From: Conchiformibius sp.
GTDB lineage: Bacteria > Pseudomonadota > Gammaproteobacteria > Burkholderiales > Neisseriaceae
DNA length: 39,212 bases
NCBI GenBank assembly: GCA_030537065.1
Contig: JAUNOT010000002.1
Coordinates: 1 to 39,212, forward strand
Direction: 5' to 3'
The position numbers and the translations under genes are program-made. Each line of letters opens with the position of its first letter. Within the stretch, counting starts at the first letter, position 1. Shown piece after piece: positions 11,480 through 14,312 of the stretch. The notes beneath the pieces are model-generated. The model was not told the DNA's origin and did not search any database. It worked only from the letters and a program-made list of their open reading frames with translations.

Positions 11480-11566
11480 AACAGACTCCGTTTGCTTGTG
11501 GGAAAACAATATTGTAAACGAAATATTCCTTTTCAGGCAGCCCGCTTGCCAAAAAGCCCCGTTTTA

Positions 11567-11577
11567 CGGATAATCCG
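11567..11577. promoter_or_regulatory. Palindrome CGGATAATCCG between thiB and rtcB
   Basis: This perfect 11-bp palindrome lies 40 bp upstream of the leader ORF and about 90 bp from the thiB start on the other strand. It could be an operator for either divergent gene. No regulator can be named. Confidence 0.3.
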
Positions 11578-11616
11578 CATTTTTATCAACTCTTATGCAC
11601 GGAAAGGAGCATTATC

Positions 11617-11673
11617 ATGATTATGACTGCACCCATCTCTCAATCCGCTATTCCGTGCAGCCCGAACGCTTAA
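11617..11673 (+). CDS. Putative 18-residue leader peptide of rtcB
   Basis: This short ORF reads MIMTAPISQSAIPCSPNA and then stops (TAA 11671-11673). It has the best Shine-Dalgarno at the locus, GGAAAGGAG (11601-11609), 7 bases before the ATG, better than those of rtcB or prfH. The stop codon lies in the loop of the hairpin AACGC/GCGTT (11665-11679). That hairpin is enclosed by GCAGCCCG (11657-11664) pairing with CGGGCTGC (11704-11711). The arrangement resembles leader-peptide attenuation. Translation and function are inferences from the SD and RNA layout, and the peptide itself is not recognised. Confidence 0.5.
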   Translation: MIMTAPISQSAIPCSPNA

Positions 11674-11760
11674 GGCGTTTATCCGACTTTATCCCGCCCG
11701 TTTCGGGCTGCTTTCCCGATTCAAACCGCTTAACATGCGGCTGTTCTTTCAGGCAGCCGC
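11657..11760 (+). promoter_or_regulatory. Candidate attenuator: mutually exclusive RNA hairpins before rtcB
   Basis: Structure A pairs GCAGCCCG (11657-11664) with CGGGCTGC (11704-11711) around the small hairpin 11665-11679. Structure B is a local hairpin, GCCCG (11696-11700) with CGGGC (11704-11708), which shares the right arm of A. A third hairpin, GCGGCTG (11737-11743) with CAGCCGC (11754-11760), lies just before the rtcB ribosome-binding site. A ribosome paused on the leader stop codon (11671) would cover the left arm of A and favour B. There is no T-run, so control would act on translation or rho-dependent termination. Confidence 0.45.
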
Positions 11761-11796
11761 GCCGTTTTGACGTGTTTTCAAACAGGAAGTATGCCC

Positions 11797-12897
11797 ATGG
11801 GCCAAGTTTCCCTAATTCACACCCCCGATTTATGGCTGGAAGGCAACGCCGTCCGCCAACTGCACACCACCGCCGAACTGCCTGCCATGCAGCGCGTGGT
11901 CGGTATGCCCGATTTGCACGCCGGACGCGGCTATCCTGTCGGTGCAGCCTTTTTCAGTACCGGCCGTTTCTACCCCGCCCTGATTGGTAACGACATCGGC
12001 TGCGGCATGGCATGGTGGCAGACCGACCTGCCCGCACGCAGCAAAACCGACAAGCTAATCAAACAACTGGGCAGCATCGACGACCCTCTAGACGACGCTT
12101 GGGCAGAACGCATCGCCGAGCTGCTGCCGAACCACCCCTTTCAGGCAGCCTTGGGTACCATCGGCGGCGGCAACCACTTTGCCGAATTGCAAACGGTGGA
12201 CACCGTTTACCGTCCCGAATTGCTGCCGTCCACGTTTGACCCGAACTGCCTGCAACTGCTGGTACACAGCGGCTCACGCGGGCTGGGGCAACAGATTTTG
12301 CGCCGCCATGTAGATGCTTTCGGCCACCACGGCCTGCCCGAAAACAGCCCCGAAGCCGAAGCCTATCTGCACGAACACGCCGACGCCCTCAACTTTGCCC
12401 GAACCAACCGCCGCCTGATTGCCGAACGTATGCTGGCACGTTGGCGCGGCACGGGCGAATGCCTGAGCGAGCAGTTTCACAACTTCCTGCAACCGCGCAG
12501 CATCGGCGGCGAACACGGCTGGCTGCACCGCAAAGGCGCCAGCCCTGCCGACGAAGGCCTGCTGATGATTCCGGGTTCGCGCGGCGATTACAGCTATCTG
12601 GTGCGCCCCCTGCCCGAAGCGGCGGAAAACGCCCTGTATTCGCTGGCGCACGGCGCAGGACGCAAATGGCAGCGCAGCGAATGCAAAGGCCGTTTGTCGC
12701 ACAAATTTCCGGCCGACAGCCTGCGCCGTAACCGTTTCGGCGGCGCGGTGGTGTGTGCCGACAAAGCCCTGCTGTATGAAGAAGCACCGCAGGCCTACAA
12801 GAAAATTGACAGCGTGATTGAAGCCTTGCGCGTTCACGGCTTGATGGAAACGGTGGCGCGGTTTAAGCCCGTATTAAGCTACAAAACCGCTGTATAA
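11797..12897 (+). CDS. rtcB2: RNA ligase RtcB2 (release factor H-coupled RctB family)
   Basis: RtcB joins RNA 2',3'-cyclic phosphate or 3'-phosphate ends to 5'-OH ends using GTP and Mn. This 366-residue form is the short PrfH-coupled type (classical RtcB is about 400-480). Metal and nucleotide residues are present: Asp66 and Cys69 in NDIGCGM, His127 in GGGNHFAEL, His157 in VHSGSRGLG, GEHGWLHRKG, and His285 in HGAGR, the residue that is guanylylated. Two close ATGs exist; ATG 11797 has AGGAAG at a 7-base spacing and is preferred over 11791. In E. coli the RtcB2-PrfH pair reseals 16S rRNA cut in the decoding centre. Here prfH lies 730 bp downstream. A perfect DUS at 12140 encodes FQAAL. Confidence 0.93.
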   Translation: MGQVSLIHTPDLWLEGNAVRQLHTTAELPAMQRVVGMPDLHAGRGYPVGAAFFSTGRFYPALIGNDIGCGMAWWQTDLPARSKTDKLIKQLGSIDDPLDDAWAERIAELLPNHPFQAALGTIGGGNHFAELQTVDTVYRPELLPSTFDPNCLQLLVHSGSRGLGQQILRRHVDAFGHHGLPENSPEAEAYLHEHADALNFARTNRRLIAERMLARWRGTGECLSEQFHNFLQPRSIGGEHGWLHRKGASPADEGLLMIPGSRGDYSYLVRPLPEAAENALYSLAHGAGRKWQRSECKGRLSHKFPADSLRRNRFGGAVVCADKALLYEEAPQAYKKIDSVIEALRVHGLMETVARFKPVLSYKTAV

Positions 12898-12944
12898 ATT
12901 TTCAGGCAGCCTGAAACGGATTGTTCGGGCTGCCTGAAAAAGGC

Positions 12945-13130
12945 TTATTGCGTGCGGGCGCGGATACACGCCTTCACTTTGCCGCCGCGTTTGACCATAT
13001 CGTCAATATGCGCGTAATACTGCTCACAGCTTTGGCGTACCGCCTCCGCACCCGAAGCAGGCGGCGCATTGTCGGCGGCACAGGCCGACAACACCAGCAG
13101 CAGACACAGGGAAGATAAAGTGGTTTTCAT
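12945..13130 (-). CDS. Small lipoprotein, unknown function
   Basis: The 61-residue protein has a lipoprotein signal (LCLLLVLSAC, lipidated Cys17) and a mature part of about 45 residues with two more cysteines (Cys35 and Cys55), which may form a disulphide. It ends EQYYAHIDDMVKRGGKVKACI and a short basic tail. The family is not recognised. It follows the 137-residue gene at 13134 by 3 bp, and its ribosome-binding site (AAAGGAA) lies inside that gene's 3' end, so the two are coupled. Both sit between rtcB2 and prfH on the opposite strand. Confidence 0.7.
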   Translation of the reverse strand: MKTTLSSLCLLLVLSACAADNAPPASGAEAVRQSCEQYYAHIDDMVKRGGKVKACIRARTQ

Positions 13131-13133
13131 CGC

Positions 13134-13547
13134 TTATTCCTTTACGGTTGAAGGTTGGGAAAGCTGCCTGCGGATGTCCGCCAGCAACTGTTTCAGCTCG
13201 GCATCGGTTTCGGCCAGCGCGTCCAAGGCCGCGCCTTGATTTTCCGTTACCAACAGGCAACGGATACGCGCCTCCGACACCGCCACGCTGTCGTTTAAAT
13301 CCACGGCAGGATTTTGCGCCACTTGGTCGGCACAACGCTCGTCCGCCTCGCGGTAGGCATCGGCGGCGGAAGAAGCGGCAGACACGGCAACCGCCGATGC
13401 AGGCGCGTGCTGCACCGCCGTTTCCAACATTGCCGGCAAATGCTTTTTCGCCGCTTCGGTGGCGGCAGGTTTGACCACATCCAAAGCAAAGCCGCCGATA
13501 CCGGCCAACACCACGCCTGCGCCTGCCAAAAGCGTTTTCTTATTCAT
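13134..13547 (-). CDS. Small membrane-anchored or secreted protein, unknown function
   Basis: The 137-residue protein starts with a hydrophobic segment (residues 5-22, LLAGAGVVLAGIGGFALDVV) that could be an uncleaved anchor or a signal peptide. The remainder is Ala-rich and helical, with Cys near residues 73 and 97 that could pair, and the segment DSVAVSEARIRCLLV. It is not assigned to a family. It is the first gene of a two-gene minus-strand unit with the small lipoprotein. It starts 80 bp from prfH, which reads the other way, so the two share a divergent promoter region. Confidence 0.65.
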   Translation of the reverse strand: MNKKTLLAGAGVVLAGIGGFALDVVKPAATEAAKKHLPAMLETAVQHAPASAVAVSAASSAADAYREADERCADQVAQNPAVDLNDSVAVSEARIRCLLVTENQGAALDALAETDAELKQLLADIRRQLSQPSTVKE

Positions 13548-13627
13548 TTTTACCGCCGTTGCACAAGGTTTAAAATGCTGATTCTAACAAAAAACTGCCC
13601 CTGCACACGGCTTCGGACCATATTTTT

Positions 13628-14245
13628 ATGATTTACCTACAAATTTCCACCGGACAATCACCGGCCGAATGCCGCCTGTTTGCCCGTTTCCTGCTGCACC
13701 GCCTGCTGGCAGAAGCCCGCGCCGACGGTTTGCACGCCGAAGTTTTGGACGAAAACGCCGACCGTCACGGGCCGTTTTCCGCCGTCCTCACCGTTTCAGG
13801 CAGCCGCGCCGAAGATTTTGCCGACCGCCGCACCGGTACGCAGCAATGGATTTGCGCCAGCCCGCTGCGCCCGAAACACCCGCGCAAAAACTGGTTTGTC
13901 GCCCTCACGCGCCTGCCCGAACCGCCGCCGCTGCCCGACGACGGCGGCATTGTGTTCCAAACCTGCCGCGCCGGTGGCAAAGGCGGCCAGCACGTCAACA
14001 AAACCGACAGCGCCGTCCGCGCCACCCACACCGCCACCGGCCTGTCGGTACGCGCCGACAGCGAGCGCAGCCAACACGCCAACAAAAAGCGCGCCCGCCA
14101 ACTGCTCGCGCTTAAGCTGGCGCAACAACACGGCCACGCCGCCGCCCAATACGCCAAACAGGCACACAGCGGCCTGTACCGCTTGGAACGCGGCAATCCC
14201 GTGCGGGTGTTTGTCGGTAGGGATTTTACTGAGCGTCCCGCCTAA
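13628..14245 (+). CDS. prfH: Peptide chain release factor homologue PrfH
   Basis: PrfH (205 residues) is a truncated class I release factor that frees nascent chains from ribosomes cut in the 16S decoding centre, so that RtcB2 can then repair the rRNA. The catalytic GGQ is in RAGGKGGQHVNKTDSAVRATH (about 115-135), and the C-terminus HSGLYRLERGNPVRVFVG is diagnostic. Normal codon-recognition elements of RF1/RF2 are absent, as expected. The Shine-Dalgarno is weak. Separation from rtcB2 by two genes on the other strand is unusual, because the pair is normally adjacent. The gene is GC-rich and ends at a strong terminator. Confidence 0.92.
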   Translation: MIYLQISTGQSPAECRLFARFLLHRLLAEARADGLHAEVLDENADRHGPFSAVLTVSGSRAEDFADRRTGTQQWICASPLRPKHPRKNWFVALTRLPEPPPLPDDGGIVFQTCRAGGKGGQHVNKTDSAVRATHTATGLSVRADSERSQHANKKRARQLLALKLAQQHGHAAAQYAKQAHSGLYRLERGNPVRVFVGRDFTERPA

Positions 14246-14251
14246 AATGCC

Positions 14252-14289
14252 AACACCGTACTGCATTACCGCAGTACGGTGTTTTTGTT
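14252..14289 (+). terminator. Strong rho-independent terminator after prfH
   Basis: AACACCGTACTGC (14252-14264) pairs perfectly over 13 bp with GCAGTACGGTGTT (14271-14283) around loop ATTACC. TTTGTTTTT follows, then a DUS at 14294-14305. Confidence 0.93.
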
Positions 14290-14312
14290 TTTCAGGCTGC
14301 CTGAAAACGGTT

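Follow-up and report, generated by a model that had tools for sequence, protein, structure and literature searches.

The RtcB2-PrfH pair repairs ribosomes that have been cut in the decoding centre, which raises the question of what turns the repair genes on when ribosomes fail. Here we analyzed the DNA upstream of rtcB2 in a 39,212-nt stretch of Conchiformibius sp. (Neisseriaceae; contig JAUNOT010000002.1, positions 1 to 39,212), referred to below as the window. All coordinates are those of the window, on the + strand unless stated. The rtcB2 gene, encoding a release-factor-H-associated RtcB RNA ligase, spans 11797-12897 (NF007153/PRK09588, 522 bits against a cut-off of 407; TIGR03073, 520 bits), with the start most likely at 11797 (MGQV), the start common to relatives. 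The prfH gene, encoding peptide chain release factor H, spans 13628-14245 (TIGR03072, 218 bits against a cut-off of 167). In published accounts rtcB2 and prfH are adjacent or overlapping. In the window they are separated by approximately 730 nt (12898-13627) with minus-strand ORFs between them, and a wide gap is also found at five other loci (L017, L018, L021, L022, and L025). Since prfH is split from rtcB2 in the window, a leader upstream of rtcB2 may not control both genes. Just 3' of prfH, at 14233-14297, there is a weak Rfam match to ctRNA_pGA1 (29.5 bits against a gathering threshold of 45), which is probably a repeat-based terminator hairpin.

The region before rtcB2 contains a leader ORF, MIMTAPISQSAIPCSPNA, at 11617-11673, with its ATG at 11617, 18 codons, and a TAA at 11671-11673. 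The ATG lies 180 nt 5' of rtcB2 and is preceded, at 7-base spacing, by the Shine-Dalgarno sequence (SD) GGAAAGGAG (11601-11609), which is kept in the leader-bearing lineages examined. Several pairings surround this ORF. P1 is a perfect 9-bp helix between TGCACGGAA (segment 1, 11596-11604), which overlaps the leader SD, and TTCCGTGCA (11651-11659) within the ORF; it was overlooked by an earlier sequence-only reading of this DNA and found by inspection of the sequence. P2 joins GCAGCCCG (segment 2, 11657-11664) to its perfect complement CGGGCTGC (segment 4, 11704-11711). Because the two helices share bases, P1 and P2 are mutually exclusive. P3 is a local hairpin, GCCCG-TTT-CGGGC (11696-11708), that competes with P2 and is kept in Neisseria-type leaders. 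P4 pairs GCTTTC (11710-11715) with GGAAGT (11785-11790), assigned as the rtcB2 SD region from sequence and pairing; two of its six pairs are G-U, and its pairing energy in the window is -5.4 kcal/mol. A small hairpin, AACGC-TTAAG-GCGTT (11665-11679), holds the leader TAA in its loop. The sequence-only reading had located the ORF, the SD and its spacing, the P2 arms, and the two hairpins, and all are present where it placed them, although the stop-codon hairpin is conserved only in patches among relatives.

A sigma70-like promoter is predicted at 11546-11574 (-35 TTGCCA, 17 bp, -10 GATAAT; 10 of 12 matches), from which transcription would be expected to start near 11581, 5' of the entire leader. 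A -10-like hexamer approximately 47-53 nt 5' of the leader ATG is also present in many relatives, frequently accompanied by TTGCCA at 17-18 bp. The sequence-only reading had held that a start downstream of 11680 would speak against a leader switch; the promoter-like sites predicted here lie 5' of the leader instead. By single-sequence statistics the leader is modest: its fold z is -2.14, which is moderately unusual, the duplex energies of P1 and P2 compared with shuffles gave 7/1000 and 74/1000, and the 8-mer GCAGCCCG has 7 copies in the window against 2.7 expected. The leader was instead confirmed by comparison, that is, by conservation and covariation.

For this comparison, rtcB2 relatives were gathered from the Neisseriaceae, from genome contigs, from the class, from the order of genome G221, from the Pseudomonadaceae, and from plasmids. 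Most share a common upstream anatomy, in which a CTGCAAAG-type arm is followed by an SD, an ATG, and an ORF of 13-20 codons that ends near a TGCAG core; 3' of this core comes an arm ending in CTGC or CCGC, and then the rtcB2 SD. The anatomy of strong SD, short ORF, P1, and P2 is also found before rtcB2-prfH in E. coli, Proteus, a Klebsiella plasmid, and the Pseudomonadaceae, and in all these clades P1 sits at the leader SD while P2 joins the ORF end to the downstream arm. Full-length rtcB2 is present in 34 of 83 Neisseriaceae genomes. A covariance model built from 18 leaders matched 31 of the 83 genomes, always directly upstream of rtcB2 (31 of the 34 with full rtcB2), in a search that tests specificity more than discovery because many matches are training sequences or their near relatives. 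The only match away from rtcB2 in these genomes was weak (E 0.04). The ORF, SD, and pairing arms are thus kept in relatives, the comparison that the sequence-only reading had proposed. By eye, three Neisseriaceae rtcB2 genes have no leader (genomes G057-G059; loci L103, L104, and L105) and show an apparent TTG start, and no such leader was seen at a few distant rtcB2 loci (e.g., L047-L049 and L094). All 30 Pseudomonadaceae loci inspected have one. Three Burkholderiales leaders (L008-L010) contain the ORF and SD; their P1 and P2 pairings are mostly not clearly better than shuffles and appear consistent with the common arrangement. In two of these Burkholderiales-type loci (L008 and L009) the rtcB2 SD lies inside a strong local hairpin (CCAGTTTCAA..TTGAATCTGG), possibly a P4 of different sequence.

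The leader is also carried on a Klebsiella pneumoniae IncC conjugative plasmid (NZ_CP086440.1, locus L077), where leader, rtcB2, and prfH adjoin sul1; the module, including its switch, is therefore mobile. In E. coli, a leader-rtcB2 query (L075) gave matches of at least 80% in 2649 of 5426 complete genomes, or approximately half. Many other E. coli genomes, including K-12 W3110, retain the leader and the rtcB2 start with the rest missing; in K-12, rtcB2-prfH is partly deleted and the leader retained. The window region and six relatives gave no leader match in Rfam at E ≤ 1, and we found no paper describing the leader outside Pseudomonas in the open-access literature searched.

We assessed covariation of the helices with a partner-swap test, in which arms were exchanged among 24 lineages in 20000 swaps. 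Own partners paired better than swapped partners for P1 (mean -12.6 vs -10.6, z -6.3, 0/20000), P2 (-14.7 vs -9.6, z -7.3, 0/20000), and P4 (-7.6 vs -5.7, z -4.4, 0/20000), while two control pairings gave z of -0.2 and 0.0; since the lineages are related, these figures are not exact probabilities. P1 and P2 covary both within the Neisseria-type group and within the remaining lineages. P4 covaries between clades only (within clades, 12699/20000 and 1271/20000) and therefore has few independent events behind it. Compensatory P2 pairs include GCAGCCCG:CGGGCTGC, GCAGGTCT:AGACCTGC, GCGGACA:TGTCCGC, and GCAGATCT:AGATCTGC. Because MAFFT wrongly aligned the P1 arm of one clade as well as one insertion, pair counts were made on anchored arms. 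Cells changed on both sides numbered 28 for P2 against 10.7 shuffled, and 8 for P1 against 1.8, the latter biased towards P1 by positioning its 5' arm for maximal pairing.

The sequence-only reading knew of no described attenuator for rtcB-prfH, but one had reportedly been described in 2009, the PA5471.1 attenuator of armZ in P. aeruginosa. The armZ gene (PA5471) is in PRK09588, the family of the window rtcB2 (PRK09588/NF007153), and shares a transcript with PA5470, which is predicted to encode a release factor (prfH); armZ is controlled by a 13-aa leader, PA5471.1, approximately 250 bp upstream (PMC3516279, PMC12057347). Codon 3 of PA5471.1 is Gln, converted to amber by C7T, and codon 4 is Phe, converted to Leu by C12A. 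Expression of armZ is on with the codon-3 amber or with stalling linked to codons 3-4, and full translation is off in the published model (PMC13041342). Deletion of positions 16-22 (7 nt) makes expression constitutive, and the model is one of transcriptional attenuation, a proposal on which that literature calls for further work (PMC12057347). Only in P. aeruginosa has disruption of ribosomes been reported to induce the armZ-prfH message through the leader, and in the literature searched we found no account of RtcB2-PrfH induction outside Pseudomonas.

Among our Pseudomonadaceae loci, L110 encodes a 13-aa leader (MIQFSTLCRLRLA) whose third and fourth codons are CAG and TTC and which lies 254 nt upstream of rtcB2. 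Its length, codons, and distance fit the published details, and L110 therefore matches PA5471.1. It contains a TGCAG-equivalent core; its P1 is clear and its P2 partner less certain. Mapped onto L110, the 16-22 deletion removes ACCCTTT, including most of the P1 3' arm; because the reading frame changes as well, the deletion does not test P1 cleanly. Judged by sequence, the leader in the window is a more distant version of the PA5471.1 attenuator. Both have a short ORF with a strong SD some 130-250 nt upstream of a PRK09588-family rtcB gene, prfH in the locus, exclusive folds, and an ORF end with a CTTTGCAGG-type core. The leader in the window differs in having 18 codons and another peptide, in the separation of rtcB2 and prfH, and in having no known link to MexZ. 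It also differs in that no terminator was found in the window, where the presence of a segment able to pair with the rtcB2 SD points to a translational output.

In most lineages the TGCAG core encodes Cys-Ser/Arg, and in others it encodes Ala-Gly/Ala. An ORF is thus kept, but because its core is translated in either of two frames, the conserved feature is the RNA and not the peptide. Spacing is nevertheless maintained. The stop codon lies 12-18 nt 3' of GCAG in nearly all lineages (17 in L093) and 26 nt in one clade, so a terminating ribosome usually covers the P2 5' arm. In all leaders measured, GCAG and the P2 arm are 22 nt or more downstream of the ATG, which places the arm out of reach of a ribosome at the start codon. 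We then folded 30 leaders from 30 species with a ribosome-sized block at the start, at the stop, or absent. Mean probabilities were 0.90 for P1, 0.46 for P2, and 0.74 for P4 with no ribosome; 0.07, 0.83, and 0.43 with a ribosome at the start; and, for P2 and P4, 0.00 and 0.75 with a ribosome at the stop. The loss of P1 or P2 under a block covering one of its arms is built into this calculation; the gain in P2 and the drop in P4 when the block sits at the start are not imposed in this way. The leader in the window behaves like the mean, P2 rising from 0.02 to 0.76 and P4 falling from 0.98 to 0.53 with a ribosome at the start.

Based on these folds, we consider it slightly better than an even chance that the leader acts as a ribosome-operated RNA switch, monitoring whether ribosomes clear the opening codons of a decoy ORF that has strong initiation. 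When the leader is untranslated, P1 would form, segment 4 would be free, and its 3' part would pair with the rtcB2 SD in P4, keeping rtcB2 off. During normal translation, a ribosome at or near the stop would cover the ORF end and block P2, so that P4 would persist and rtcB2 would again be off. A ribosome that begins translation and is then detained at the start or among the first few codons would cover the P1 5' arm and leave the ORF end free; the ORF end could then pair with segment 4 in P2, shortening or displacing P4 and freeing the rtcB2 SD. Such an early hold would be expected from decoding-centre damage or from drugs that block ribosomes. The sensor logic, in which the translation state of the leader chooses between exclusive folds, is well supported. 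Translation of the leader ORF, a translational output, and rRNA damage as the natural signal are each what we infer from this arrangement. The output step appears to be the weak part of the model, since some species, including E. coli and Proteus, keep P4 when P2 forms, and the mean unpaired probability of the rtcB2 SD in masked folding changes just from 0.31 to 0.37. The claim of the sequence-only reading that a conserved leader ORF chooses between exclusive folds, making damage-induced repair plausible, thus holds up, but its stop-codon trigger and its lack of precedent do not.

Other explanations of the arms and the ORF were weighed against this switch. A near-consensus DNA uptake-type repeat (CGGCTGCCTGAA) lies incidentally inside the leader on the minus strand (11748-11759), and the genome holds 1420 exact copies of AGGCTGCCTGAA and none of the reversed control, a pattern that would be expected of a DNA uptake sequence dialect. 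The hairpins could then be by-products of this abundant repeat (core GGCTGCCTGAA), as its copy number and the near-copy in the leader would allow. However, the arms also occur in species with another repeat dialect, in E. coli, and in Pseudomonas, and they covary; these comparative data refute an uptake-repeat origin, to which we give next to no credence. Nascent-peptide arrest as in erm or cat leaders, with the peptide sensing a small molecule, would suit a short ORF before a stress gene, and LCRS/LCSP residues do recur. A conserved leader peptide was sought across the lineages, but the peptides diverge strongly, contrary to what arrest calls for, and one RNA core gives LCRxx or FAGxx/FFAAQ depending on the frame. 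In P. aeruginosa, moreover, Q3K or F4L alone leave basal armZ unchanged. Peptide-specific arrest is rejected by the frame change over the core, and arrest of this type is very unlikely here. It is more unlikely still that the leader ORF merely raises rtcB2 expression through translational coupling or re-initiation. Leader ORFs are generally capable of such coupling, but in Neisseria-type loci 108-231 nt separate the leader stop from rtcB2, which is far for re-initiation, and the exclusive covarying helices would be left unexplained.

The remaining alternatives keep the switch and change its trigger or its output. In the sequence-only reading, the proposed trigger was delayed release at the leader stop codon, which would refold the RNA and induce rtcB2. 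PrfH is itself a release factor, a ribosome at the usual stop position would control P2, and stop-codon hairpins are somewhat more frequent than shuffled sequences would give (mean score 5.07 vs 2.87). Against this, the hairpin is absent or weak in many lineages, one clade has its stop farther away, and in folding, placing the ribosome at the stop eliminates P2 but not P4, whereas a ribosome at the start favours P2. Early stops or stalls in P. aeruginosa turn armZ on and full translation turns it off; these genetics and the deletion mapped on L110 favour an early-codon trigger, and a trigger at the stop is improbable. The output could instead be transcriptional, with the same sensor, P2 serving as antiterminator, and full translation permitting an intrinsic or Rho-dependent terminator before rtcB2. 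This agrees with the published PA5471.1-armZ model and with P3, a G+C-rich hairpin conserved in Neisseria-type leaders. However, the search for an intrinsic terminator was negative on the + strand of the window leader and in most leaders scanned, including L110 and that of E. coli, and in the window P3 is followed by TGCTTTCCC rather than the T tract that a G+C-rich terminator hairpin would have. Transcriptional control also does not predict the kept complementarity to the rtcB2 SD. Given the negative terminator search, we favour translational control acting at the rtcB2 SD, and we regard a transcriptional output as a real but doubtful possibility.

The switch favoured here resembles the erm, cat, and msrD translational attenuators, in which a ribosome held on the leader refolds the RNA and exposes the downstream SD, as is proposed here. 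Those systems need drug-specific nascent-peptide arrest, whereas the leader peptide in the window is unconserved and the likely signal would be a general failure of early elongation. As in the trp and his transcription attenuators, the position of the ribosome would pick between exclusive helices, but the leader in the window lacks a stretch of regulatory codons, and the search in it for an intrinsic terminator was negative. The controlled genes belong to the RtcB2-PrfH repair operon studied in E. coli ATCC25922 with colicin E3, and E. coli has the same leader; the searched passages of the ATCC25922 paper contain no leader, attenuator, or native promoter control.

Ribosomes that fail on the decoy ORF probably turn on the rtcB2 repair enzyme, and a conserved leader that gauges how well ribosomes work would couple repair to the damage itself. 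The Pseudomonas case is already known, and what is new is its wider-spread version. We tentatively suggest, at somewhat less than even likelihood, that this is a beta- and gammaproteobacterial leader RNA family that senses ribosomes initiating but not elongating, that decoding-centre damage itself thereby induces the rRNA repair enzymes RtcB2-PrfH, and that antibiotic control of armZ/mexXY in P. aeruginosa is a later use of it. A conserved leader would join that antibiotic response to a wider repair system, and its distribution is a sign that the PA5471.1 kind of attenuator is widespread and tied to ribosome repair.
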